Origin: Candidatus Frackibacter sp. WG13
Lineage (GTDB): Bacteria > Bacillota > Halanaerobiia > Halobacteroidales > Acetohalobiaceae
Reading direction: 5' to 3'
Assembly (NCBI RefSeq): GCF_900114655.1
Contig: NZ_FOTT01000025.1
Span: 1 to 47,616, forward strand
DNA: 47,616 nucleotides
In this document: positions 14,308 through 45,486 of the stretch, one piece after another
How positions within the stretch are numbered: position 1 is the stretch's first letter
Layout: the number at the start of each line of letters is the position of its first letter
The notes under the pieces: generated by a model
Databases searched by the model: none
What the model saw: the letters and a program-made list of their open reading frames with translations, nothing else
What the model was told of the DNA's origin: nothing
Program-made: the position numbers and the translations under genes

Positions 14308-16551
14308 GTGGCTACAATAATAGATATTGACGGAACTAAATGTCAAAAGTGTTATGCGTGTGTTCGGCAATGTGTTGCTAAAGCAATTAAAGTAGAAGAT
14401 AGTCAAGCTAAAGTAGTTGAAGAGCGGTGTATTAATTGTGGTCGTTGTCTTGATGTATGTGCAAGAGATGCTCGAGAAGTAAAAAGTTATCGCACAGAAG
14501 TTAAAAGTTGGCAACAACATCAAGAAGAAGTAGTAGCTTGTTTGGCGCCATCATTTGTCGCTTCTTTTAATGATTGTAGTCCAGGGCAGTTAGTTACTGC
14601 CCTGCATCAATTGGGTTTTAGTCAAGTCTATCGAGTAGCTTTGGGGGCAAATTTAGTAGCTGAAAGATATGATGAATACTTAGCTGATTCTAAAGAAAAA
14701 AATTTAATTAGTACTGCTTGTCCAACAATAGTTAATTTGGTCGAAAAACATTATCCTCAATTGGCTTCTAAATTACTTCCTTTTGCTTCACCGATGGTGG
14801 TTACAGGGATGTTGATTAAAGAACAGAATCCAGAAGCTAAAGTAGTCTTTGTTGGACCTTGTACCGCTAAAAAGGCTGAGATGGAGCAAGAAAAGTCAAA
14901 AGATAGTATCGATGCGGTCTTGACTTTTAAAGAGGTTAAGGAAATGTGTATCGAAGAAGATATAGAATTATCGACTCTATCTGTGACTGAATTTACGCAA
15001 GGGAACTTTGAGCATAGTGATGATTTTGCTCTATCGGGAGGATTAGCTGCTAACTTAAAGAGTTTTAATGATGACGAAGTATTGATTACAGAAGGGAGTC
15101 ATAATTGTAAAGAGTTAATCAATGGTGTATTAAATAATGAGATTGAGGTTAAGTTATTAGATATATTATTCTGTGCAGGATGTATAGATGGACCACAAAT
15201 AGATAGTCAATTATCTTTATTTGCAAGGGAAAAGTTGGTTAAAGATTATTTAGAAGAGGAAGAGAAGCAAGTTAATGATATAGTGAATGATGATAATGAT
15301 GATTCTGTTATTGAATTAAAAGGTATGGATTTTAATCGAGAATTTAATCCTTCGACCTTGGAGTTAGAGACTCCGACTGAACAAGAAATTAAAGAGATCC
15401 TAACTTATATGAATAAGGTTACACCTAGCGATGAGTTAAATTGCGGCGCTTGTGGTTATGATTCATGTCGTGAAAAGGCTGTGGCGGTTTATCAAGAATT
15501 GGATGAGATTGAGATGTGTTTGCCTTATCTATTAGACCAGACGCGTGAAGAAGCAGACTATTATAAAGATAAGCTTTCTCAGGACCAACAGACTAAGTAT
15601 ACTTTTAATGATATTAAAGGCAAGAGCGTAGAGGTCAAAGAAGCTAAGATTAAAGCCCAACAGGCAGCACAGACGAAGTCAACTATTTTGATTCTTGGTG
15701 AAAGTGGAACTGGGAAAGAGATGTTTGCTCATGCAATCCATAATGCCAGCCATCGTAAAAACGGACCTTTCATTAAAGTAAACTGTGCAGCAATTACAGA
15801 AAGTCTATTGGAAGCTGAATTATTTGGTTATGAAGAAGGTGCTTTTACTGGTGCTAAAAAGGGAGGCAAAGCCGGTAAGTTTGAATTAGCCGACCAAGGG
15901 ACTATCTTTTTAGATGAGGTAGGAGATATGTCTTTGCGGATGCAGTCTAAGTTATTACGTGTCCTACAAGAAGAAGAAATAGAACGAGTAGGTGGTAATC
16001 ATACTCAAAATATAGATATACGGGTGATTGCAGCTACTAATCGTAATTTGAAACAGATGGTTAAAGATGGAGATTTTCGTGAAGACCTCTATTATCGTTT
16101 AAATGTAATTACGATAAATACTCCTGCCTTACGTAATAGAATTGAAGACTTACCGGTGATCGTTGATCATATTATTACTAAATTAACAGCTGAACAACGA
16201 CTTCCTCGCAAGCAATTAACAAAAGATGCCTTGAATCAACTAATGCAGTATGATTGGCCTGGGAATGTACGTGAGTTAGAGAATATAATTATGCAGACTT
16301 TTAGTTTAACTTATGATGAGGAGATTAAACCTGAAAACTTACCAAACTATATTCTACAAACTGATGGTCATGTACCTACTTTAATTAATGATGAACAGAT
16401 TCAGCCTTTAGCTGAACTGACGGCAGAAGTAGAAAAACAAGCCGTTCACCAAGCTTTAGAATTAACTAACTGGAATAAGAAACAGGCTGCAGAGTTATTA
16501 CAGATTTCGCGTTCGACTTTATATCAAAAATTAAGTAAGTATGATATTTGA
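14308..16551 (+). CDS. Sigma-54 activator with ferredoxin and [FeFe]-hydrogenase-like sensor domains
   Basis: Domain order: a two-cluster ferredoxin (CQKCYACVRQC near residues 12-22 and CINCGRCLDVC), a [FeFe]-hydrogenase-like domain (about 75-310), a small Fe-S domain with NCGACGYDSC (about 377-386), an AAA+ domain and a Fis-type HTH (about 715-747, ending QISRSTLYQKLSKYDI). The hydrogenase domain has altered H-cluster loops (STACPTI, VGPCTAKKAE, FCAGCIDGP), keeping cysteines but probably not catalysis. The AAA+ domain has Walker A GESGTGKE near 464 and the sigma-54 contact motif GAFTGA near 511. It probably senses H2 or redox state and activates the -24/-12 promoters of the two adjacent hydrogenase operons. 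GTG start with AAGGAAGTG upstream, 24 bp after ppaC. Confidence 0.93.
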   Translation: MATIIDIDGTKCQKCYACVRQCVAKAIKVEDSQAKVVEERCINCGRCLDVCARDAREVKSYRTEVKSWQQHQEEVVACLAPSFVASFNDCSPGQLVTALHQLGFSQVYRVALGANLVAERYDEYLADSKEKNLISTACPTIVNLVEKHYPQLASKLLPFASPMVVTGMLIKEQNPEAKVVFVGPCTAKKAEMEQEKSKDSIDAVLTFKEVKEMCIEEDIELSTLSVTEFTQGNFEHSDDFALSGGLAANLKSFNDDEVLITEGSHNCKELINGVLNNEIEVKLLDILFCAGCIDGPQIDSQLSLFAREKLVKDYLEEEEKQVNDIVNDDNDDSVIELKGMDFNREFNPSTLELETPTEQEIKEILTYMNKVTPSDELNCGACGYDSCREKAVAVYQELDEIEMCLPYLLDQTREEADYYKDKLSQDQQTKYTFNDIKGKSVEVKEAKIKAQQAAQTKSTILILGESGTGKEMFAHAIHNASHRKNGPFIKVNCAAITESLLEAELFGYEEGAFTGAKKGGKAGKFELADQGTIFLDEVGDMSLRMQSKLLRVLQEEEIERVGGNHTQNIDIRVIAATNRNLKQMVKDGDFREDLYYRLNVITINTPALRNRIEDLPVIVDHIITKLTAEQRLPRKQLTKDALNQLMQYDWPGNVRELENIIMQTFSLTYDEEIKPENLPNYILQTDGHVPTLINDEQIQPLAELTAEVEKQAVHQALELTNWNKKQAAELLQISRSTLYQKLSKYDI

Positions 16552-34116: not shown

Positions 34117-34149
34117 AAACCTCCTTTATTATAGTGAAGGAGGTTTTTC
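34117..34149 (+). terminator. Terminator of the hyp operon
   Basis: AACCTCCTT (34118-34126) pairs with AAGGAGGTT (34137-34145) and is followed by TTT. The GGAGG arm also masks an SD-like sequence. Confidence 0.85.
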
Positions 34150-34158
34150 TATTTGCTC

Positions 34159-34219
34159 TTGACATTGAGAATGATTTTTATTATAATTAATTAAAATGAT
34201 ATTGAAAACGATTTTCAAT
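34159..34219 (+). promoter_or_regulatory. SigA promoter with two Fur-box-like sites
   Basis: TTGACA (34159-34164), a 17-bp spacer and TATAAT (34182-34187) form a near-perfect promoter. TGAGAATGATTTTTA (34166-34180) lies in the spacer, and the near-palindrome ATTGAAAACGATTTTCAAT (34201-34219, 8 of 9 pairs) lies just downstream. Both resemble the Fur consensus TGATAATnATTATCA. Iron-dependent repression is expected. Confidence 0.85.
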
Positions 34220-34280
34220 TACTTAATACAAATACATAGTGCAAAGAAGAAAGAAGTAAAATTTAAAAGCAGGTGATAAG

Positions 34281-35261
34281 ATGAAAGTTTTAGTAACTGG
34301 AGGAGCCGGATTTATCGGTTCTAATTTAGTAAAGAGTTTATTGAAGGTGGGGCATCAAGTAGTTGTTATTGATAATTTTAATGATTACTATGACCCAAAG
34401 ATTAAGGAGAATAATATTAAACAATTTATAAAACATGGTAATTTTAAATTATATCGAACAGATATTTTAAACCAAATTCGCTTAGCTGAAATTTTTAAAA
34501 AAGAAGAAATTGATAAAGTGATTCATTTAGCAGCTATGGCTGGAGTACGTAATTCCATCGATAAACCAAACTTATATGTCGATGTTGATGTGAAGGGGAC
34601 AATTAATTTATTAGATTTGGCTGTCAAATATAATATAAAACAGTTTGTATTTGCTTCTTCTTCCTCGGTTTATGGGGAAAGAAAGGATCTTCCTTTTAGT
34701 GAAGATATGAAACTTGATTCACAAGCATCACCTTATGCTACAGCTAAAAGATCGGCCGAATTATTTTGCAGGAATTATCATAATTTATATGACTTAAATA
34801 TATCTATTTTACGTTTCTTCACTGTTTTTGGACCACGACAGAGACCCAATATGGCAATTAGTAAATTTACTAAATTAATTGCTCAAGGGCAACCTGTCCC
34901 GATGTTTGGAGATGGTTCTACTACTAGAGATTATACTTATATTAGTGATATAGTTAGAGGTATTAAATTAGTTCTAGAAGTTAATCCAAGGTTTGAAATC
35001 TTTAATCTAGGTTCCGGAAGACAAGTTAAGTTACTAACCTTGATTGAGGTAATTGGTAATAGCTTAGGAAAGAAGTCTAAAATTAAAGAATTGCCCGCAC
35101 AGCCTGGAGATGTGCCAGTTACTTATGCCGATATTACTAAGGCTAAAGATAGATTAAATTACCAACCTCAAATTGATATCAGAAGAGGGGTTGCAAAATT
35201 TACACAGTGGTATATGAAAGAGAAGTCAAATGGCGGACATATAAATAGAAAAGTTATTTAA
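34281..35261 (+). CDS. NAD-dependent sugar epimerase, UDP-glucuronate 4-epimerase-like
   Basis: This 326-residue extended SDR enzyme has GGAGFIGSNL (NAD binding, residues 7-16), catalytic YATAK (near 152-156), SSSSVYGE and FTVFGPRQRPNMA. The segment DNFNDYYDPKIKENNI is characteristic of UDP-glucuronate 4-epimerases of capsule pathways, although UDP-glucose 4-epimerase activity cannot be excluded. It is the first gene after a Fur-box promoter, so sugar-nucleotide supply here appears iron-regulated. It probably feeds the glycosyltransferases downstream. Confidence 0.88.
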   Translation: MKVLVTGGAGFIGSNLVKSLLKVGHQVVVIDNFNDYYDPKIKENNIKQFIKHGNFKLYRTDILNQIRLAEIFKKEEIDKVIHLAAMAGVRNSIDKPNLYVDVDVKGTINLLDLAVKYNIKQFVFASSSSVYGERKDLPFSEDMKLDSQASPYATAKRSAELFCRNYHNLYDLNISILRFFTVFGPRQRPNMAISKFTKLIAQGQPVPMFGDGSTTRDYTYISDIVRGIKLVLEVNPRFEIFNLGSGRQVKLLTLIEVIGNSLGKKSKIKELPAQPGDVPVTYADITKAKDRLNYQPQIDIRRGVAKFTQWYMKEKSNGGHINRKVI

Positions 35262-35321
35262 AGTAAAAGAAATATTAATGATTTAAAATTATTCTTTAGT
35301 GTTTTTTAGGAGGGGGTCATC

Positions 35322-36806
35322 ATTTATGGTTCAATTCTAATATTTATTGCAATTGGGGTTAGGTTATTCTTCCTAAGTCCCTATCCTCATGGCTGGGATG
35401 CTGTAGACTTTATTTTAGGGATTAGATACTATGATTTATCATTAATGCAACCACATTTTCCTGGTTACCCGGTTTATATTTGGTTGGGAAAGTTTATTAA
35501 TCAGTGGGTGGGCAATGAAGAGTTGTCTTTAGCTTTAATAAGTGCGATATGTGGTGGTTTATCGGTAGTTCCATTTTATTTATTAGTTAATAGAATTTTT
35601 AATAAAAGATTTGCTTTATTAGCAGGATTATATTTGATATTTAGTCCACTACATTTAATTTTAAGTGCTAAGATTATGTCTGATATGATGGGTACTTTGT
35701 CTATCTTATTATTCTTATATTTAACTTATTTAAGTTGGCAAAAGACTCAGTATAGAAAATGGCACTTAATAAGTGGTGCAGTCGTTTTAGGGTTAGGTTT
35801 AGGAGTTAGGATCTCCTATTTTCCTTATTCTATAGTATTATTAATTAGTTTAATTTTATGGTATAAAGAAAAGAAAGAGCTTAAAACTATAATTCTGACT
35901 CTAATAAGTTTTATAAGTGCATTCTTCCTTTGGTTAAGCTGGCAGACCGTTAGAGCAGGAGGTTTATTAGACTTTCTTAAGATAGCAATTGACTTTACTG
36001 TGGGTCATTTTAACGATTGGGGAGGAACCTTAGTTACAGATAGTTCTTTGGGGTTAAGGTTAATTAAGTTAATTTATGATAATATCTTAGTGGCCGGATT
36101 AGGGTTTTATCAATCTGGTGATTCAATATTTAAATTAATATTATCTGGATTTATTCTATTAGGAATGATTAGTTTTATTTTAAAAGTTAAATTGACTAAT
36201 AAAGATAAATTATTTTTGGCTAGTTGGTTTGTTCCATATTTTTTATGGGTGATCTTTGGACAGAATGTAGCTAAGCCTAGGCATATAATTACTTTAGTAC
36301 CGTTATTCATAATTTTAATAGTGGCAGGATTAGATTATATTTTGGATTATTTGGGAAATAGGATATATTATTTAAGCTATGGCCTTCTAGTCTTAATATT
36401 AATTATGACTTCTGTACCACTAATAGGAACTTACAATAAGAGTTCTCCTCCGGTGATAAAATTAAGCCATTATTTGAACAAAAACTTTGATTCTACTGAG
36501 ACTATAGTTTATACGTTTGAAGAGGAGCGGGTAATTGATTATTATCATCCGGAATTTATAGTTGGCCGAGTTAGGAGAGTGGAGGACTTTTATGTTAAGC
36601 TATTATCATTGCCTAATAAGCCAAAGAACATTTTAATGACTAATGCAGTATATAATAGTTTAATTAGTCAAGAAAGTGATCTAAAAAAATATTTGCAGCC
36701 CATTAAGCAATGGGAGAAAGATAAACTATTGTATCCTGTATATAATAAAGTGATTCTTTACAAAGGTCAGGAAGGAATTTATGATTATATTCAGGCCTAT
36801 GATTAA
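35322..36806 (+). CDS. GT-C type membrane glycosyltransferase, probable non-ATG start
   Basis: This polytopic protein of about 494 residues has roughly ten membrane spans. Its first loop carries SPYPHGWDAVDF and QPHFPGYPVYI, which resemble the acidic, substrate-binding loop of polyprenyl-phosphate-sugar-dependent GT-C transferases (ArnT/PMT/DUF2723 types). The first ATG (35445) would remove the first membrane span and this loop. The frame is open back to a TAG at 35307, and AGGAGGGGG (35308-35316) stands before ATC (35319) and ATT (35322), so translation probably starts at ATT or ATC. It lies 60 bp after the epimerase. The acceptor is unknown. Confidence 0.8.
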   Translation: MYGSILIFIAIGVRLFFLSPYPHGWDAVDFILGIRYYDLSLMQPHFPGYPVYIWLGKFINQWVGNEELSLALISAICGGLSVVPFYLLVNRIFNKRFALLAGLYLIFSPLHLILSAKIMSDMMGTLSILLFLYLTYLSWQKTQYRKWHLISGAVVLGLGLGVRISYFPYSIVLLISLILWYKEKKELKTIILTLISFISAFFLWLSWQTVRAGGLLDFLKIAIDFTVGHFNDWGGTLVTDSSLGLRLIKLIYDNILVAGLGFYQSGDSIFKLILSGFILLGMISFILKVKLTNKDKLFLASWFVPYFLWVIFGQNVAKPRHIITLVPLFIILIVAGLDYILDYLGNRIYYLSYGLLVLILIMTSVPLIGTYNKSSPPVIKLSHYLNKNFDSTETIVYTFEEERVIDYYHPEFIVGRVRRVEDFYVKLLSLPNKPKNILMTNAVYNSLISQESDLKKYLQPIKQWEKDKLLYPVYNKVILYKGQEGIYDYIQAYD

Positions 36807-36860
36807 AAATAAAACAAATTAGCTCAAATGGTATTTTTAATTAATAATTGAAAATTAACC

Positions 36861-36920
36861 TTGACAGTGAGAGTGATTTTCATTATAATTACTTACAGAC
36901 AATTATGAAAATCATTATCA
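36861..36920 (+). promoter_or_regulatory. SigA promoter with two Fur boxes upstream of fbpA
   Basis: TTGACA (36861-36866), 17 bp, TATAAT (36884-36889). TGAGAGTGATTTTCA (36868-36882) overlaps the promoter. TGAAAATCATTATCA (36906-36920) matches the Fur consensus TGATAATnATTATCA at all but one defined position. Confidence 0.92.
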
Positions 36921-36950
36921 ATAAGATTTTAGGAGGAGATTACTATTAAA

Positions 36951-37994
36951 ATGAAAAAGTCATTATTTATTTTAACTGTAGCTTTAGTTTTGAGTATTGC
37001 TACTGTTTCTACAGCTTCGGCTGGTTTTTTTGATGCTTTCTTTGGTTCGGATAAGGGAGAAGTTAATCTTTATACTAACAGACATTATGAAGCTGATGAA
37101 AAGTTACTTGAAAAGTTTGAAGAGAAGACAGGTATTAAAGTGAATGTTTTGAAAGGTACTTCAGATGAGTTAATCGAAAGAATCGAAAGAGAGGGAGAAG
37201 ATACACCGGCTGATCTATTAATTACAGCTGATGCTGGTAGATTGTACCGTGCTAAGGAAAAAGGTTTATTACAATCGGTTAAGAGTGATATATTATTTAA
37301 TAATATACCAGCTAATTTAAGGGATAAAGAAAATTATTGGTTCGGCTTGACTGTTCGCGCTAGAATTATAGTTTATGCTAAGAATAGGGTAGATGAGTCA
37401 GCATTATCTACATATGCAGATTTAACAGATGATAGATGGAGAGGAAGAATATTAGCAAGAACTTCATTGAATATCTATAATCAGTCTTTATTAGCTTCAT
37501 TTATCGCCTTAGAAGGAGAAGAGTTTGCTAGAGATTGGGCAGCGGGAATTGTAAATAATATGGCAAGAAGACCCAAAGGTAATGATACAGCACAGGCTAT
37601 AGCAGTAGCTTCAGGTGTTGGTGATTTAACAATTATGAATACTTACTATCTGGGAAGAATGTTGAATTCATCAGATCCACAAGAAGTAAAGTTAGCTAAA
37701 CGATTGGGAGTCTTTTTTCCTGACAAGACTCATATCAATATAAGTGGAATTGGTCTTACTAAGCATGCTAAGAATAAGGAGAATGCTATTAAATTAATGG
37801 AATTCTTATCAAGTGAAGCAGCACAAAAATTCTTTGCTAGTGCTAATTATGAATATCCTGTTAATCCAAATGTAGAACCGGCACCTCTATTAAAATCATG
37901 GGGTAGATTTGAAGCACAAGATATTAACTTAGCTAAACTAGGAAAATATAATCAAAGAGCAGTCGAGATCTTTAATGAAGTAGGATGGCAGTAA
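36951..37994 (+). CDS. fbpA: Ferric-iron ABC transporter substrate-binding protein, FbpA/FutA-like
   Basis: This 347-residue secreted protein has signal peptide MKKSLFILTVALVLSIATV...ASA (cleavage near residue 24). It begins the mature domain with VNLYTNRHYEADEKL, the signature of FutA/FbpA iron-binding proteins. A Tyr pair (NTYYLGRM, near 227-228) is in the usual Fe(III) ligand position. The Fur-box promoter directly upstream supports the iron role. The SD AGGAGGAG lies 12 bases before the ATG, rather far; an in-frame ATT at 36945 would have better spacing. Confidence 0.92.
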   Translation: MKKSLFILTVALVLSIATVSTASAGFFDAFFGSDKGEVNLYTNRHYEADEKLLEKFEEKTGIKVNVLKGTSDELIERIEREGEDTPADLLITADAGRLYRAKEKGLLQSVKSDILFNNIPANLRDKENYWFGLTVRARIIVYAKNRVDESALSTYADLTDDRWRGRILARTSLNIYNQSLLASFIALEGEEFARDWAAGIVNNMARRPKGNDTAQAIAVASGVGDLTIMNTYYLGRMLNSSDPQEVKLAKRLGVFFPDKTHINISGIGLTKHAKNKENAIKLMEFLSSEAAQKFFASANYEYPVNPNVEPAPLLKSWGRFEAQDINLAKLGKYNQRAVEIFNEVGWQ

Positions 37995-38016
37995 TTAAGA
38001 TATTAATTAAGTTTAA

Positions 38017-38046
38017 TGGAAGCAGTCAATTAATTGACCGCTTCCA
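38017..38046 (+). promoter_or_regulatory. Intercistronic hairpin between fbpA and fbpB
   Basis: TGGAAGC-AGTCAA pairs with TTGAC-CGCTTCCA with one internal mismatch and a short loop. There is no T tract. It probably stabilises the fbpA mRNA or reduces expression of the permease relative to the binding protein. Confidence 0.65.
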
Positions 38047-38068
38047 GATAAGAGGTAGGTGATTCTAT

Positions 38069-39724
38069 TTGTTGAAAAGAAGAAATTTGAAGTCGTTATT
38101 CAATATATGGTCTATTTCAAGTTTTATCATTATACTCTTTATTTTAATTCCAAATATTAATATCTTATTGAATATATTTAATCCAGTAACAGATAATTGG
38201 GAGCATATACAGAAGTATCTTTTAAAAGATTATATAGTGAATTCAACGATTCTTATTTCATTTACAGGTGTTCTTTCTATTTTAATAGGTTTGACATTAG
38301 CGTGGCTTATTAGTCAGTTTGAGTTTCCTTTTCGTGATTTTTTTAAATGGGCGCTAGTGCTGCCTTTAGCAATATCTCCTTATATTGGTGCCTATACATA
38401 TAATGGATTATTGAATTATACCGGAGTTATTCAAACGACCTTAAGAGGCTTTGGTGTCGATGTTAATCCATCTTATTTTGATATTATGACTATGCCTGGT
38501 GCAATATTCATCTATACCATCTTTTTGTTTCCTTATGTCTATATCATAACCAGGTCATTTCTATCAAAGCAATCTGCTTCTTTAGTGGAAGCTTCAAGGA
38601 CTTTAGGTAGAAGTTATTTTGAAACGTTTTGGTATGTTATTTTACCGGTTTCTAAAGGAGCTATTGTTGCTGGAAGTAGCTTAGTAATTTTAGAAGTTCT
38701 AAATGATTATGGAGTTGTAAAATATTTTGGGATACCAACTTTTAGTACAGCAATTTTTAAGACATGGTTTGCGATGGGAGATGCAAATTCTGCAATTAGA
38801 TTATCTGCTTTACTGATGGCGTTTGTTTTTGGTGTGTTGCTAGTAGAGAAATTCTCTCGAGGTGGTAAGCGATTTAGCTATAGTACTACTAAGATAAGGC
38901 CTATTTCTAGAAAAAAGTTATCAGGAATCAAGGCTTTCATGACTTCTGGATTCTGTTTTTCAGTTTTTAGTATTGGATTTTTAATTCCTACATTGCAGTT
39001 ACTTCATTGGAGTTGGTTAAGTTATGATGATGTATTAGATATGGAATTTATACTCTTTGCTATTAATTCTTTGTTTGTAGCTTTACTTGCTTCTGCACTT
39101 ATCATTATTATAGCGGTCATTATTGCCAATACAGTAAGAATTAATGATAATATAATTTCAAAAATATATTCGAAGATTGCAATTCTTGGTTATTCAATTC
39201 CAGGAGCTGTTATAGCCATTGGAATTTTAACATTCTTTATCACTTTAGATAATCAGATAGAAGTCATATATAAGTTATTGGATCTTGGCACAAGTGGATT
39301 AGTCTTAAAGTCGAGCATAATAATGCTTATCTTTGCTTATATAATAAGGTTCTTAGGTATAGGCTATAATTCTGTCGAATCAGGATTTGATAGAGTAGGT
39401 AGTAGTTTCTTTGAAGCATCACGAACTCTTGGTGTTGGAATAACTGAGACCTTCTTTAAAGTCGACTTACCTATGATTAAACCTGCAGTTAAGAGTGGGT
39501 TCTTGCTTGTGCTTATTGAAGTATTAAAGGAACTACCTTTGACGTTGATTTTAAGACCCTTCAATTTTGACACATTAGCTAGTAAGGCTTTCGAATATGC
39601 AGGAAATGAGATGATACATGAAGCTGCTATCTCATCTATGATTATAATTTTAGTTTGTGGCATTGCTATATATCGTATTAATACAGTTGGAAGTAAGGGG
39701 GGTAAAAATGCTCGTTCAAATTAA
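38069..39724 (+). CDS. fbpB: Ferric-iron ABC transporter permease, FbpB-like
   Basis: This 551-residue fused permease has two halves of about six membrane spans. Each half carries the ABC-permease EAA loop: EASRTLGRSYFETFWYVILP (near residue 174) and EASRTLGVGITETFFKVDLP (near 449). This is the usual arrangement for FbpB/FutB iron importers. TTG start (38069 or the next codon 38072) with AGAGGTAGGTG upstream. The last codons overlap fbpC. Confidence 0.92.
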   Translation: MLKRRNLKSLFNIWSISSFIIILFILIPNINILLNIFNPVTDNWEHIQKYLLKDYIVNSTILISFTGVLSILIGLTLAWLISQFEFPFRDFFKWALVLPLAISPYIGAYTYNGLLNYTGVIQTTLRGFGVDVNPSYFDIMTMPGAIFIYTIFLFPYVYIITRSFLSKQSASLVEASRTLGRSYFETFWYVILPVSKGAIVAGSSLVILEVLNDYGVVKYFGIPTFSTAIFKTWFAMGDANSAIRLSALLMAFVFGVLLVEKFSRGGKRFSYSTTKIRPISRKKLSGIKAFMTSGFCFSVFSIGFLIPTLQLLHWSWLSYDDVLDMEFILFAINSLFVALLASALIIIIAVIIANTVRINDNIISKIYSKIAILGYSIPGAVIAIGILTFFITLDNQIEVIYKLLDLGTSGLVLKSSIIMLIFAYIIRFLGIGYNSVESGFDRVGSSFFEASRTLGVGITETFFKVDLPMIKPAVKSGFLLVLIEVLKELPLTLILRPFNFDTLASKAFEYAGNEMIHEAAISSMIIILVCGIAIYRINTVGSKGGKNARSN

Positions 39725-40427
39725 AGATTTAGATTTTAGATATAAAAATTCCGATGAATATGTCCTTAAAAACTTTAATTTAGATATAGAAAAAGGTGAT
39801 ATAGTCTGTATTTTAGGAGAGAGTGGCAGTGGTAAGAGCACAGTTTTAAGATTAATTGCTGGGCTTGAGGTGCCACATAAAGGTATTATTAAGATTGATG
39901 ATGAGGTAATGGTTAATGAAAGTACTTTTGTCTATCCTGAAGAAAGAGAAATAGGGGTTTTATTTCAGGACTATGCCTTATTTCCCCATATGACAGTAGC
40001 AGAGAATATATTATTTGGTGTGAGAAATAAGGAGAAAGGATACAAAGAACAGAGGTTACAAGAACTATTAAAATTGATCGGTTTGGAAGAGTTAAGAGAA
40101 CGTTATCCGCATCAAATTAGTGGAGGACAGCAACAACGAGTAGCTTTAGTTCGAGCTTTAGCAATCGACCCATGGTTAATATTAATGGATGAACCATTTA
40201 GCAATCTTGATGCTAATTTACAATCCAGGATCAGACAAGAATTAAAAGGGATTATTAAGAAGACAGGAATAACTTCGGTCTTTGTTTCTCATGATAAAGA
40301 TGATGCTATAGATATAGCTGATAAAATAGTAGTCTTAAAGGATGGGGATATTATCCAGCAAGGCGTTACTGAAAATATTGTTTCTAAACCAAGTTCTAAA
40401 TATGTAGCGGGGCTTTTCGCGTCATAA
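39708..40427 (+). CDS. fbpC: Ferric-iron ABC transporter ATPase, FbpC-like, short form
   Basis: This 239-residue ATPase has Walker A GESGSGKST, Q-loop QDYALFPH, signature ISGGQQQRVALVRALA, Walker B LILMDEPFSNLD and H-loop VSHD. It ends at about residue 239, so the C-terminal regulatory (TOBE-like) domain present in typical FbpC of about 350 residues is missing. ATG at 39708 follows AAGGGGGG and overlaps fbpB by 17 bp; an upstream in-frame start at 39657 lies deep in fbpB and has no ribosome site. Confidence 0.93.
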   Translation: MLVQIKDLDFRYKNSDEYVLKNFNLDIEKGDIVCILGESGSGKSTVLRLIAGLEVPHKGIIKIDDEVMVNESTFVYPEEREIGVLFQDYALFPHMTVAENILFGVRNKEKGYKEQRLQELLKLIGLEELRERYPHQISGGQQQRVALVRALAIDPWLILMDEPFSNLDANLQSRIRQELKGIIKKTGITSVFVSHDKDDAIDIADKIVVLKDGDIIQQGVTENIVSKPSSKYVAGLFAS

Positions 40428-40468
40428 TTTTGTGTAGTTTTTTGTATCAATAGAAATAGGTGAGATAA

Positions 40469-41344
40469 TTGAATTTAGATGAGATACTTAAAGCAGGTAA
40501 ATTATTATTTAATCCTAAATTATTATTAATCTTTGGTTTAGGGTATTCTTTAGCATTCTGGTTAAGATCAATAGCTTGGTTAGAGTTATTTAAAAAAAGA
40601 AATATGGAGACAAAGGATTTATTTTCTTTACAAATGGTCTCCTTACTGTTTAACCATATATTTCCTGCTAAAATGGGTGAAGTGGCAAAAATATATCTTT
40701 TACACAGAAGGGATTACTCGGTTGCAAAAGCGACCTCTACAGTAGTATATAGCAGAGTTATAGATATAATTTCACTAATAATTAATGTAATGATATTTAG
40801 TCTATTATCAATTAGTTATATCAGTTTTGATTGGAAATTACTACTACTTCCTTTGATCTTAATCACGATTATTTTAATAGGAATACTTATATTTAGTCGT
40901 TGGAGTTTAATTTCTAAAATTCAAAATAAGTTATTCGATTATTTATTGCAGTTGCAACAAGCATTTAAGGAGATAAGCTTTAAACAACTAGTTAAGGCAG
41001 TATTAATTACAATTCCTAGTTGGATTTTAGAGGTAAGTGCTATTATGGTAGTGGTTAGTGCTTTAGGTTTGGATTTAGGTTTAATTCCTTTAGTAGTTGT
41101 TAATAGTTTTACAATTATGACCCAAGTATTCCATATTACTCCTGGAGGCGTCGGAACTTATGAAGCTAGTATGGCTTTTATTTTAGGATTATATGGAGTA
41201 GATTTGGAATTAGCTTTATCTATTGCTGTTTTAACTCATAGTCTAAAGTTTATCTATTCTTATTTGATTGGCGGAATCTTTACCTTGCGTGAATCAGTTA
41301 AATTAGTAGATATAGTCAGATTTAAAGAAAAGGTCATAGGTTAG
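40469..41344 (+). CDS. LPG-synthase TM-domain (UPF0104/AglD-like) membrane protein
   Basis: This 291-residue protein has about seven to eight membrane spans. The motifs LLFNHIFPAKMGEVAKIYLL (near residue 60) and TPGGVGTYEASMAFILGLYGV (near 225) are typical of the integral membrane domain of lysylphosphatidylglycerol synthases and its stand-alone relatives, thought to move lipid-linked substrates across the membrane. No synthetase domain is attached. TTG start after TAGGTGAG. It lies 42 bp after fbpC and is likely in the same Fur-controlled operon. Confidence 0.85.
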   Translation: MNLDEILKAGKLLFNPKLLLIFGLGYSLAFWLRSIAWLELFKKRNMETKDLFSLQMVSLLFNHIFPAKMGEVAKIYLLHRRDYSVAKATSTVVYSRVIDIISLIINVMIFSLLSISYISFDWKLLLLPLILITIILIGILIFSRWSLISKIQNKLFDYLLQLQQAFKEISFKQLVKAVLITIPSWILEVSAIMVVVSALGLDLGLIPLVVVNSFTIMTQVFHITPGGVGTYEASMAFILGLYGVDLELALSIAVLTHSLKFIYSYLIGGIFTLRESVKLVDIVRFKEKVIG

Positions 41345-41356
41345 GAAGGAGATATG

Positions 41357-42808
41357 ATGAAAGAAGCATCACAATTTGAAGTTTGGGCAGCTAGATGTTG
41401 GAATCTATTAAATGAAGGGAAATCATTTTATACTATCTTTTCAATCGCTATATTCTTAATGTATCATGTAAAGGCTTGGGGGAGCATAGGATTTTGGAAG
41501 GCTGCGTTATTTTCTGTAATTTTGAATTTGCCATTATTGATTACTTATATTCGTTATGACTTTCCGCTTCACTTACGTAGTTTTTTATGGTTACCAGTTT
41601 TAATCTTTATAACTACTTTAAACTATTGGAATTGGAATTTGGTCTTATTTGATTTGGGAATTTATTTATTCTTTACAGTTATTTTTTGGGGTACAATCTA
41701 TTATCACTTAAGAATTGGTACTACTTTAACTAACTTTACTCGCTTTTGGAAATTAGTTTTAGAACATAGTGACTCTACTAGTGGGAACTTTCAAGAACAA
41801 GTGCCTAAGACTATAGTTACATTATTAAGTTTAAACTATCTATATTTGAACTTAACAGGAGAGATACAAGCGTCAGAACTATTGAATAATTATAGTTTCT
41901 TTTTTATTGGGACAATCTTATTAGCAGTCATAGTACATAAGAGTTTGTTCAATTGGAAGCCAGAGCAGTATCAAGAATTAACTAATAATGTCGAAGTTAA
42001 GGAGAAGATTACTGACCGAGTTATTATGATTATCATTGATGGCTGTCGTAAGGATAAATTAGCTGAAGCTGACACTCCTTTTATTGATCAACTACTAAAA
42101 AAAGGAACCGAGTATACTCAGATGGAGACGATTTATCCTGCTAGAACAGTAACCTGCTTTTCTTCGTTATTTACTGGAACTTATCCTTGGGAGCATGGGA
42201 TCAAAAGTAATCTAGTCTTAGATTTAGGAATTAAGACTGAGAGCATCTTTGATAAGTTAAGAGAAAAAGATAAGAAAGGTAAGTTATTAGGAATTGCTCA
42301 TTTAATTGATGCTTTTGGTGAGGAAGATGTAGAAGCAATAACAGCAGTAATGGATAATGATGAGGCAGATGCTAATATAATTAGGCGGGCTAAAAAGATT
42401 ATGAAGCAAGAAGATCCTGAATTATTAATTACACAGCTAATTAGTGTTGATCAGACAGGTCATAGCCGTGGTCCTCATTACTCTGAATATCTCGAAAAGA
42501 TTGAAGAAGCTGACAGACATATTGAAGGTTTTGTAAAATGGTTAACAGCAGAAGGCTATATGGATGACACTACCCTAATTATTGCTGCTGATCATGGGCA
42601 AAGTCGGGGTATTGGTGCACATGGTCATTTAGATGAGGGCGAAAGGTATGTACCTCTTATTATTCAGGGGCCACAAGTTAAGCAAGGTTACAAAGTTACT
42701 GATAGACATAGTATTGTATCAGTTGCTCCAACGATTAGCTATTTATTAGGAGTAAATTATCCAAATGCTTCGCGAGGACCAGTTCTGATTGAAGCATTTA
42801 AAGAATAG
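41357..42808 (+). CDS. Membrane-anchored alkaline-phosphatase-superfamily phosphodiesterase
   Basis: The N-terminal ~200 residues hold about six membrane spans. The rest is an alkaline phosphatase/nucleotide pyrophosphatase-type domain: IMIIIDGCRKDKL (metal Asp), the nucleophile-region loop YPARTVTCFSSLFTG (Thr or Ser), SVDQTGHSRGPH and AADHGQSRGIGAHGH. Such enzymes hydrolyse or transfer phosphate esters on lipids or glycans outside the cell. ATG at 41357 is preferred over 41354 because AAGGAG ends at 41351. The substrate is unknown; the setting suggests a lipid-linked glycan. Confidence 0.82.
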   Translation: MKEASQFEVWAARCWNLLNEGKSFYTIFSIAIFLMYHVKAWGSIGFWKAALFSVILNLPLLITYIRYDFPLHLRSFLWLPVLIFITTLNYWNWNLVLFDLGIYLFFTVIFWGTIYYHLRIGTTLTNFTRFWKLVLEHSDSTSGNFQEQVPKTIVTLLSLNYLYLNLTGEIQASELLNNYSFFFIGTILLAVIVHKSLFNWKPEQYQELTNNVEVKEKITDRVIMIIIDGCRKDKLAEADTPFIDQLLKKGTEYTQMETIYPARTVTCFSSLFTGTYPWEHGIKSNLVLDLGIKTESIFDKLREKDKKGKLLGIAHLIDAFGEEDVEAITAVMDNDEADANIIRRAKKIMKQEDPELLITQLISVDQTGHSRGPHYSEYLEKIEEADRHIEGFVKWLTAEGYMDDTTLIIAADHGQSRGIGAHGHLDEGERYVPLIIQGPQVKQGYKVTDRHSIVSVAPTISYLLGVNYPNASRGPVLIEAFKE

Positions 42809-42867
42809 TGAAGAATTGTTAATTATACAAGATCCTTAATTATTAATTGGTTGCAAGGAGGATAAAG

Positions 42868-43617
42868 ATGAAAAAAGTAATGATAATTATCCCGGCATTA
42901 AATGAAGAAGAGGCTATTGGGAAGGTAATAGCAAAGGTTCCACGAAACCAGGTTGAAGGAGTCAAATTTGAAGTATTAGTTATCGATGATGGGTCAACTG
43001 ATAGAACTATAGAGGTAGCAAAAGAACATGGAGCTGACTACATTATTTCTCATGCTGACAACTGGGGCTTAGGAGCTACAATCCGCCAGGGATTAGAATG
43101 GGCTTATGAACAAGGAGCAGATATCGGAGTCATGATTGATTCTGATAATGAGTATCCTGCTGATGAAATTGATAATTTAATTAATCCTATTTTAAAAGAT
43201 AAAGCCGATTATGTTCTTGGCTCTAGGTTTATGAAAAAGGTTAGAGGGATGACAGTAATGAGAAGGCTAGGCAATTATGTATTTACTTTATTACAATCTA
43301 TTTTGTTAGGCAGATGGATTACTGATGGTCAGACTGGAATGAGAGCTTTTAGCCGAGAAGTTATGAGAGATTTTCGTATCATTCATGATTATAATTATGC
43401 CCAGGTGATTACATTGAATATTTTGAGACAAGGATATAGATTAGGACAAGTTCCAATCAATTATTCTGTAAGAGAAACAGGAGACTCTTTTATTAAATTT
43501 AGAGAATATATGACGCAAGTTCTTCCAGCTATTTGGGAAGAGATGACTAATAGTCCTGAAGAAAATATTAAGATTATTAGAAAGGAGGGGTTATCAACGA
43601 GTGTACGAGTATGTTAG
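42868..43617 (+). CDS. GT2 family glycosyltransferase (dolichyl-phosphate mannose synthase-like)
   Basis: This 249-residue GT-A enzyme has IIPALNEEEAIGKVI, VIDDGSTDRTIEVA (nucleotide and metal binding), MIDSDNEYPADEI (DxD-like region) and DGQTGMRAFSREVM. This is the pattern of DPM1/polyprenyl-phosphate sugar transferases that make lipid-linked sugars for GT-C enzymes. ATG at 42868 follows AAGGAGG. No C-terminal membrane spans are present. It could supply the donor for the GT-C protein at 35322-36806. Confidence 0.88.
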   Translation: MKKVMIIIPALNEEEAIGKVIAKVPRNQVEGVKFEVLVIDDGSTDRTIEVAKEHGADYIISHADNWGLGATIRQGLEWAYEQGADIGVMIDSDNEYPADEIDNLINPILKDKADYVLGSRFMKKVRGMTVMRRLGNYVFTLLQSILLGRWITDGQTGMRAFSREVMRDFRIIHDYNYAQVITLNILRQGYRLGQVPINYSVRETGDSFIKFREYMTQVLPAIWEEMTNSPEENIKIIRKEGLSTSVRVC

Positions 43618-43669
43618 GATTAATTTTTAACTATTTAAATATTAGTGACTAAATAAAGGAGCTGATAAG

Positions 43670-44302
43670 ATGTTAAAAAATAAGAAAGTATTAAGTAGCT
43701 TTGTGATGGTACTGGCTTTGGTGGTAGCATTCTCAGGGGTTAGCTTTGCCTATTCTTATGGATCTAGTGTGAAAGAACCAATGGCTGAGGCTTATAAAGA
43801 TGTAGTATTTAATCTAAATAAGTCTCCACAGAATTGGGATAAAGTAGCTGAAAAAGTTGGAGAGGTAAAGGATAAATTAGAGTATTTAACTAAAGAACTA
43901 AATGAGATTAATAATCAAAGTCAGTTTTTGGCTGATTATGCAACTGAAATTGAAGAAGCTATTGCAAGAAAAGATAAAGAGGCTGTTATTTATAATTTTC
44001 AATTAGCTTTAGCAGGTAATATTGAAAGAAGATTAGAATCTGCTGAAAAAGAGATTAATGAATATAAGACAGCTAAAACCTTAATCAAGAAGGCTAAAGC
44101 CTTTTATGAAGCGTTAGAAATAGTTGTTAAAGCTGATTCTCAGGAGGCTAATGAAAGAGCTGAGAAAGCATTAACAAGAGCATTAAGTTCTTTAGGGAAT
44201 CCAGGAGCGTTTGGATTTGGAGCACAACCACCTAAAGTAGAAGAATATAAAGAACATAAGAATACAGTTATTAATGTATTAGAAGATGTTATTATTAAAT
44301 AG
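43670..44302 (+). CDS. Secreted helical protein of unknown function
   Basis: This 210-residue protein has a clear signal peptide (KVLSSFVMVLALVVAFSGVSFA, cleavage near 27). The mature part is almost all predicted helix with heptad-like charged repeats (KVGEVKDKLEYLTKELNEI; ERRLESAEKEINEY), plus a short Gly/Pro-rich break (LGNPGAFGFGAQPP). It is not recognised. It lies between the GT2 gene and another secreted helical protein in the iron-responsive locus. A cell-surface or periplasm-like binding role is inferred from location only. Confidence 0.7.
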   Translation: MLKNKKVLSSFVMVLALVVAFSGVSFAYSYGSSVKEPMAEAYKDVVFNLNKSPQNWDKVAEKVGEVKDKLEYLTKELNEINNQSQFLADYATEIEEAIARKDKEAVIYNFQLALAGNIERRLESAEKEINEYKTAKTLIKKAKAFYEALEIVVKADSQEANERAEKALTRALSSLGNPGAFGFGAQPPKVEEYKEHKNTVINVLEDVIIK

Positions 44303-44314
44303 GAGGTCTAGAAA

Positions 44315-45409
44315 ATGAATAAGAATTTAAGTAAATTAATAACGGTTTTGGTATTATTTTCAGTGATAGTTCTAGGAACTAGCAGTGTTTTTGCTGCTTA
44401 TCTACCACTTAAGACTGATGTGTCAAAACAGCAAGCAAGAATAGATGCTTATAAAGAGATTAATCGACTAAGACATAAAGAAGAGATTGACTTTGATAAG
44501 ATTGAAAATATCTATACTGATGTCTTACAAGGCACAGTACAGGCTAGAGACGAAGAGTTTGGTACAACTATGGATCAGTATATTCAAGCTGCCTTTTATG
44601 GGGTAGAAAATGGTCAAGACCCTGCTTTAGCCGCACAGATTGTTGATAAGACCTTGAAGAGAGCTTTTTACTTATCAGTAAAGCATGAGTTAGACGAAGC
44701 CATTAAAGAGTTTGCTAATAAAGAAGAAGCTCATCATAAGTTAGACGAAGCTGTTGTTTATTATGAAGCAATTGCAGGAACAGCTAAGAAGCGTTCTGAA
44801 GATTTACATGAAGGTATTTTATCCGGGCTAAAGAGTGCTCGAAGAGCAATTGAAAATGATAAATTAATTGATCTAAAGATAGCAGATCAGATTATAGGTA
44901 AGACGATCATTAAAGTATTCTATGCTTCGGTTTTACATGAAGCAGAAGAGGTTGAAGAATATATAGCTGAAAATCCTGCAAAAGCTAAAGTTAAGCAGAT
45001 GGAAGGATTAGTTTATTATCAGACTATTAAAGGGAAAGTTAAGCCTAACAATAAGATAGGTCATATTATAGTAGGAGATATGTTAAGTGGAGATATTAGT
45101 GAATTTGATTATGATGTTATCTTAGAAGAAATAAGTCGAGGTTTTGTTGGTAAGCCTCTAGGTTACTTAGAAGAAGTTAAAGAGAACTGGGGTACTGATA
45201 AAGCGCTAGTTGAAGCATGGGAAGCTCTAGTATACTATAATGTCTTTGCAGAAGACGTGGAAGCAAGACTAGGCGTTGAAGCTGGAGAAGAACTATTAAC
45301 TAATCTACGTTCATATGTAGGTGCTGTAAAGCAAGAAGACCGAGCTAAAGTAGATGCTTTAGAAAAGAAGATTAAGAAGACACTTAGAGAGTATATTAGC
45401 AAATTATAA
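44315..45409 (+). CDS. Secreted protein with internal helical repeats, unknown function
   Basis: This 364-residue protein has a signal peptide (KLITVLVLFSVIVLGTSSVFA). It contains at least two similar blocks: QIVDKTLKRAFYLSVKHELDEA...EAVVYYEAIAG (about 108-154) and QIIGKTIIKVFYASVLHEAEEV...EGLVYYQTIKG (about 194-241). A third, weaker copy ends in EALVYYNVFAE (near 308). Each full block keeps an FYxSVxHE core and a VYYxxI motif, so His/Glu pairs recur, as in metal-binding helical bundles. Together with the Fur-controlled neighbours this suggests an iron-binding surface protein, but that is inference. It lies 12 bp after the preceding gene, and a terminator follows. Confidence 0.75.
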   Translation: MNKNLSKLITVLVLFSVIVLGTSSVFAAYLPLKTDVSKQQARIDAYKEINRLRHKEEIDFDKIENIYTDVLQGTVQARDEEFGTTMDQYIQAAFYGVENGQDPALAAQIVDKTLKRAFYLSVKHELDEAIKEFANKEEAHHKLDEAVVYYEAIAGTAKKRSEDLHEGILSGLKSARRAIENDKLIDLKIADQIIGKTIIKVFYASVLHEAEEVEEYIAENPAKAKVKQMEGLVYYQTIKGKVKPNNKIGHIIVGDMLSGDISEFDYDVILEEISRGFVGKPLGYLEEVKENWGTDKALVEAWEALVYYNVFAEDVEARLGVEAGEELLTNLRSYVGAVKQEDRAKVDALEKKIKKTLREYISKL

Positions 45410-45423
45410 GAAGTTGTTACAGA

Positions 45424-45458
45424 AGGTTGTCTGGAATATTTTCAGGCAACCTTTTTTG
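45424..45458 (+). terminator. Terminator after the iron-responsive operon
   Basis: AGGTTGTCTG (45424-45433) pairs with CAGGCAACCT (45443-45452, one G-U) and is followed by TTTTTT. Confidence 0.88.
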
Positions 45459-45486
45459 AGAGCAATTTGAATTTTTTAGAAAGATT

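Follow-up and report, generated by a model that had tools for sequence, protein, structure and literature searches.

Introduction

Why should an operon for ferric-iron uptake run on into genes for a lipid-linked glycan? The question is raised by a locus of Candidatus Frackibacter sp. WG13, analysed here within a contig of 47,616 nucleotides (NZ_FOTT01000025.1; "the window" denotes this whole stretch). An FbpABC-type importer is encoded there together with a sugar epimerase, two glycosyltransferases, a flippase-like membrane protein, a membrane phosphodiesterase and two secreted helical proteins, all on the forward (+) strand. In Gram-positive-type bacteria, the known routes of iron uptake are those by siderophores, heme, Feo, Efe and Fbp. 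A sequence-only reading had proposed that the importer and the glycan genes work together under Fur control. Our analysis leads us to favor, with moderate confidence, a Fur-controlled iron-acquisition locus that has its own extracellular glycosylation machinery: a polyprenyl-phosphate-dependent, three-component module that would add a probable uronic acid to an extracellular acceptor.

Conservation of the locus

The co-occurrence of glycan and iron genes is conserved well beyond the window. A search with the phosphodiesterase among 398 sampled genomes of the phylum gave 11 carriers. The cluster surrounds this gene in the relatives G004 and G006 and in four distant Bacillota genomes (G204, G278, G365 and G402); G004 has no epimerase at that place, and the FEA gene of G402 was recognised through a search with the FEA profile. 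In the four distant genomes an FTR1 permease, whose identity is backed by both Pfam and NCBIfam, replaces FbpABC. A scan of named genomes then gave 188 relatives, and in the best 80 of these, essentially all Bacillales, we read about 20 kb per locus. Among these 80 loci, where gene counts are conditional on the presence of the phosphodiesterase, the glycosyltransferase family 2 (GT2) gene was found in 80, the GT-C glycosyltransferase in 77, the secreted protein called sec9 here in 75, FTR1 in 75, the flippase-like gene in 74, FEA in 73 and the epimerase in 61. The usual order in Bacillales is FEA, epimerase, flippase-like gene, phosphodiesterase, GT2, sec9, FTR1 and GT-C.

Reverse searches of the 398 genomes gave the same picture. 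The sec9 profile retrieved exactly the 7 genomes with the full cluster (hypergeometric 1e-12, uncorrected for relatedness), and the FEA profile retrieved the same 7 cluster genomes and two marginal matches. The importer is the exchangeable part of the locus: the window has FbpABC, and Bacillales have an FTR1 permease in its stead. The expected pairing of glycan genes with an iron importer, of either kind, was borne out in distant lineages.

Four high-GC genomes (G020, G105, G193 and G067; loci L028-L031) hold the phosphodiesterase, GT2 and epimerase genes together with distant relatives of FbpA, FbpB and FbpC. They were considered as carriers of the whole system and rejected, since FEA, sec9, the flippase-like gene and GT-C were not detected there. 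They may represent a reduced or diverged version of it.

Fur-type boxes and transcription units

Two promoters serve the locus. P1 (34159-34219) consists of TTGACA-17-TATAAT at 34159-34187 with Fur-type boxes at 34166-34180 and 34203-34217, and P2 (36861-36920) of TTGACA-17-TATAAT at 36861-36889 with boxes at 36868-36882 and 36906-36920. Each matches 12 of 12 promoter positions, better than the near-consensus match first noticed, and they are the sole perfect sites in the region. Both carry a Fur box of the 19-bp/7-1-7 type. The boxes were scored against TGATAATNATTATCA over 15 positions, with a wildcard counted as a match; those at 34166, 34203 and 36868 scored 12/15 and that at 36906 scored 14/15. 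A Markov simulation of the whole window gave an expectation of 0.35 sites at 13 matches and 0.0 at 14, and 25 boxes with 12 matches were seen against 7.6 expected; single boxes of this score are near chance in this AT-rich DNA and are not relied on by themselves. The weight of the case lies in the architecture and its conservation: one box sits inside each perfect promoter and a second one downstream, and this arrangement is repeated in G004 and G006. In G004, TTGACATTGAGAATGATTTTTATTACAAT lies upstream of GT-C in a P1-like layout and a boxed promoter precedes fbpA in a P2-like layout; in G006, TTGACAATGATAATGATTTTCATTATAAT lies immediately upstream of the epimerase, and fbpA again has a boxed promoter.

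The same box is found elsewhere in the window genome, between a FUR-family gene and feoAB and also upstream of an FTR1 permease gene, which calibrates it as an iron box. On contig G000:C6 (locus L115) a fur-family gene, a DUF2325 gene, feoA and feoB are consecutive, with a perfect Fur box right behind the fur-family gene. On G000:C11 (locus L116, 1600-2820) a 406-aa FTR1-family permease has a perfect 15-bp box some 100 bp ahead of it and forms a second Fur-boxed iron system of this genome, which has three FUR-family genes.

In the 80 related loci, a box was counted as strong if it matched at 13 or more of 14 positions. The sec9 genes have one at 66 of their 75 starts and the FEA genes at 36 of 73 (together 102/148), whereas the six remaining core genes have one at 9 of 448 (Fisher p 8e-67, uncorrected for relatedness). 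Seven of these nine starts belong to lead genes: the flippase-like gene in L070 and L079, the epimerase in L052, L096 and L107, and GT-C in L032 and L057. In the five loci where the box is directly upstream of the epimerase or GT-C (L032, L052, L057, L096 and L107), no FTR1, FEA or FbpA gene was recognised within the 20 kb read, which means that the Fur box there belongs to the glycan genes themselves. The total of gene starts with a strong box is 111, compared with 129 such boxes in the whole 1.66 Mb. The boxes and their placement suggest that both units of the window are Fur-controlled and iron-responsive.

The limits of the units are also visible. An intrinsic terminator at 34117-34146 (13-pair stem, dG -16.4) closes the upstream hyp (hydrogenase maturation) operon. 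A terminator between fbpC and the gene at 40469 would have spoken against a common unit; the gap is 41 bp and holds no terminator-like hairpin, nor was any terminator-like site found in the intergenic stretches of 36951-45409. Behind the last gene, at about 45425-45458, lies an intrinsic terminator made up of a strong hairpin and a T-run (fold of 45410-45470, dG -25.1). The second unit thus contains fbpABC to GT2, as predicted, yet it does not end at 43617 but extends through the sec9 and FEA-like genes to 45409.

Genes of the glycan module

Family and structure matches bore out the names first given to the epimerase, GT-C, fbpABC, flippase-like, phosphodiesterase and GT2 genes. The first unit opens with a nucleoside-diphosphate-sugar 4-epimerase (34281-35261; Pfam Epimerase/GDP_Man_Dehyd), best read as a uridine diphosphate (UDP)-glucuronate 4-epimerase. 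Among solved structures its best match is 5u4q (E 5e-71), which shares the NDYYD motif but is titled a dehydratase, and its second best is the UDP-glucuronate 4-epimerase of Bacillus cereus, 6zl6 (E 9e-59). The equivalent of Arg185, which holds the product carboxylate, is kept, and GPRQRP aligns with GPRQRP of 6zl6. Genes resembling UDP-sugar dehydrogenases are found inside the cluster or close to it in 26 of the 80 loci, on either side and either strand, and 15 of the 19 loci without the epimerase have one; the tested genomes all hold TIGR03026 enzymes. The epimerase type and these neighboring genes point to UDP-glucuronate or UDP-galacturonate as the putative donor.

The second gene (35322-36806) encodes a GT-C glycosyltransferase of the PMT_2 type (PF13231, E 1e-14), in which D26, D29 and HFPGYP are invariant among homologues; it has the extracytoplasmic acidic residues of such enzymes. 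No ATG, GTG or TTG start was found for it in the window, and translation probably begins at ATT 35322. A conserved non-canonical ATT start, of which infC is an example, is likely for this gene. In its relatives in G004 and G006 the corresponding position (L022, ~16936; L023, ~14545-14580) has ATT or ATC behind a ribosome-binding site.

Three further glycan genes follow the importer. The protein of 40469-41344 belongs to PF03706 (E 3e-40) and scores above the TIGR00374 cut-off; these families suggest a flippase role. The product of 41354-42808 is a membrane-anchored phosphodiesterase or phosphotransferase of the alkaline phosphatase superfamily (PF01663, E 1e-31). It has a membrane N-terminus and seven invariant residues (D229, T265, D366, H370, D413, H414 and H425), which we take to fit the two-metal site of this superfamily. 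The GT2 gene (42847-43617, alternative start ATG 42868; PF00535) encodes a DPM1/ArnC-like protein, and its similarity to the DPM (dolichyl-phosphate mannose) synthase 5mlz and to ArnC indicates a probable polyprenyl-phosphate sugar synthase.

Iron importer and secreted proteins

The importer genes directly follow P2. FbpA (36951-37994) has a signal peptide and matches the iron-binding solute-binding proteins 6g7n (E 1.7e-102) and 2pt1 (E 7e-102); FbpB (38069-39724) is a double-domain permease with two PF00528 (BPD_transp_1) stretches; and FbpC (39708-40427) is an ATPase (PF00005, ABC_tran, E 2e-35). The open-reading-frame list places the start of FbpC at 39657, whereas ATG 39708 has a ribosome-binding site before it. 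With a solute-binding protein of the ferric-binding family and adjoining permease and ATPase genes, this is an importer of the FbpABC/FutABC class.

The last two genes of the second unit encode secreted all-helical proteins. sec9 (43670-44302) has a signal-like N-terminus, belongs to no known family and was modelled with a pLDDT (predicted local distance difference test) of 91.7. EfeO (7wgu), EfeM and an imelysin were listed in its fold search, but they matched no better than unrelated bundles, and no relationship is deduced from them. In Bacillales, sec9 (e.g. L033:12209-13012) has a C-terminal membrane helix and a basic tail, which are absent from the window protein, and a near-invariant GNPGLFGVG motif.

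The FEA-like protein (44315-45409; model pLDDT 89.9) scores 35.8 bits against NF038033, whose cut-off is 250. A lipobox cysteine is found in 28 of 33 aligned FEA sequences, and Thr22 stands in its place in the window protein, which thus lacks a lipobox. A search with its sequence against solved structures found nothing. The existence of the NCBI model NF038033, for FEA1-related lipoproteins, means that proteins distantly related to the FEA-like one had already been noticed. Both secreted proteins may bind iron. A pathway for a glycosylphosphatidylinositol-like anchor, brought to mind by the DPM1-like GT2, the GT-C and the PF01663 enzyme, was set aside because the secreted proteins of the window have no hydrophobic C-terminal tail.

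Discussion

How could the two gene sets act together? When iron is short, Fur would leave both promoters and both units would be made. The epimerase would provide a UDP-sugar, most likely UDP-galacturonate made from UDP-glucuronate, and GT2 would load the sugar on polyprenyl phosphate. The PF03706 protein may carry the lipid-linked sugar over the membrane, where GT-C would pass it on. The acceptor outside the cell would be the helical FEA-like and sec9 proteins or else a wall or membrane polymer close to them, and the membrane phosphodiesterase might edit or release a phosphodiester in that product. The surface would become acidic and rich in carboxylates, and with the FEA-like protein and sec9 it would hold ferric iron or hand it to the importer, FbpABC here and FTR1 in Bacillales. 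We put forward only tentatively the broader proposal of a distinct bacterial mode of iron acquisition: under Fur control, a pathway of lipid-linked uronic-acid glycosylation would supply an acidic surface glycan that captures ferric iron with two new secreted helical families and feeds interchangeable importers (FbpABC or FTR1).

Several observations weigh against this interpretation. The sister genomes G010 and G012 carry FbpABC (~70 percent identity) without adjoining glycan genes and gave no phosphodiesterase match; hence the importer does not need the glycan module everywhere. The epimerase falls under every NCBIfam equivalog cut-off, which makes UDP-galactose or UDP-N-acetylgalactosamine a possible substrate. 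Many UDP-sugar dehydrogenase-like genes of Paenibacillus are short (~263 aa), and the enzymes that they encode may be inactive. The FEA-like protein is a distant relative of the FEA1-related lipoproteins and not a member of that family, and fold searches with the confident models of both secreted proteins gave generic helical-bundle matches and no convincing solved relative.

The strongest competing explanation is that the glycan genes serve envelope remodelling in iron starvation, e.g. of wall charge or permeability, and merely share a regulon with the importer. Loci of Ammoniphilus, Fictibacillus and Brevibacillus are in keeping with this, as Fur boxes lie there directly before the genes from epimerase to GT2 or before GT-C, with no FTR1, FEA or FbpA recognised in 20 kb; three-component systems of GT2, flippase and GT-C are also known to decorate surface polymers (PMC11127046). 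However, in 73-75 of the 80 loci the glycan genes interleave with FEA, sec9 and FTR1 in a conserved order, which is tighter than a regulon requires, and the profile searches of the 398 genomes found neither sec9 nor, two marginal matches aside, FEA without the cluster. We regard remodelling alone as unlikely. A still less probable alternative is dedicated protein glycosylation, in which GT-C would O-glycosylate sec9 and the FEA-like protein, which would need the sugar for stability or anchoring instead of iron binding. The membership of GT-C in the PMT_2 (protein mannosyltransferase) family and the presence of two secreted proteins in the same cluster agree with this, but the module occurs without FEA or sec9 in 5 of the 80 loci, and the four high-GC genomes have the phosphodiesterase, GT2 and epimerase with no detectable FEA or sec9.

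The trigger might also be something other than iron, if the boxes served another FUR-family repressor such as Zur or PerR. The three FUR-family genes of the genome leave room for this, yet we consider it very improbable, since the same box also marks feoAB, which adjoins a FUR-family gene, and the FTR1 gene, and the cluster itself holds iron importers. Hardly credible, finally, is an ordinary polysaccharide cluster that lies beside fbpABC by chance: FbpABC does stand alone in G010 and G012, but the cluster recurs in the order of the window, both in Bacillales and elsewhere, beside two unrelated importers and with independent Fur boxes, and on the point of co-occurrence the idea is already refuted. 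An iron-acquisition locus with its own glycosylation module thus remains the explanation that we prefer.

The components of this locus resemble several known systems. Three-component extracytoplasmic glycosylation systems, of the GtrABX type and those for pentofuranoses, encode a GT2, a proposed flippase and a GT-C together (PMC11127046). The window locus likewise brings together a GT2 synthase, a flippase-candidate membrane protein and a GT-C, but its flippase candidate is of PF03706 rather than of the GtrA, MATE or SMR type, and it adds a membrane phosphodiesterase, Fur boxes, iron importers and secreted helical proteins. In Rhizobium, RgtE and RgtA-D act with a UDP-glucuronate 4-epimerase: a polyprenyl-phosphate-galacturonate donor is made, and galacturonate is added outside the membrane, where it decorates the lipopolysaccharide of these Gram-negatives. 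An ArnC-like GT2 and GT-C enzymes are shared features, and the probable uronic-acid epimerase of the window would be another, whereas the Rhizobium system includes neither an iron importer nor secreted helical proteins.

On the iron side, the locus is like FbpABC/FutABC ferric importers in that FbpA is close to solved ferric-binding proteins, one double-domain permease and one ATPase are present, and the promoter is Fur-boxed. Standard operons of this kind end after the ATPase, as in G010 and G012, while the window operon continues. The Bacillales locus pairs FTR1 with a distantly FEA1-related secreted protein and so recalls EfeUOB/FTR1 uptake and algal FTR1 with FEA1; it differs in that no EfeO or EfeB was recognised, a glycan module lies inside the cluster, and the FEA1 homology is weak. 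Among the algal Fea1 proteins, which are iron-induced, there is at least one that binds iron (PMC7676907, PMC4855317).

In the open-access papers searched, we found no description of glycan and iron genes that are combined behind Fur-type boxes and joined by two secreted families with hardly any annotation. Its novelty is provisional, because the search covered open-access sources only, and its parts belong to known kinds. The locus gives a setting in which to view FEA1-related proteins, over whose role in algae there is still debate. That Bacillus, Paenibacillus and their relatives conserve an iron importer together with a dedicated module for glycan export suggests that iron capture involves a surface glycan; as culturable Bacillales carry the locus, gene deletions offer an immediate test of this idea.

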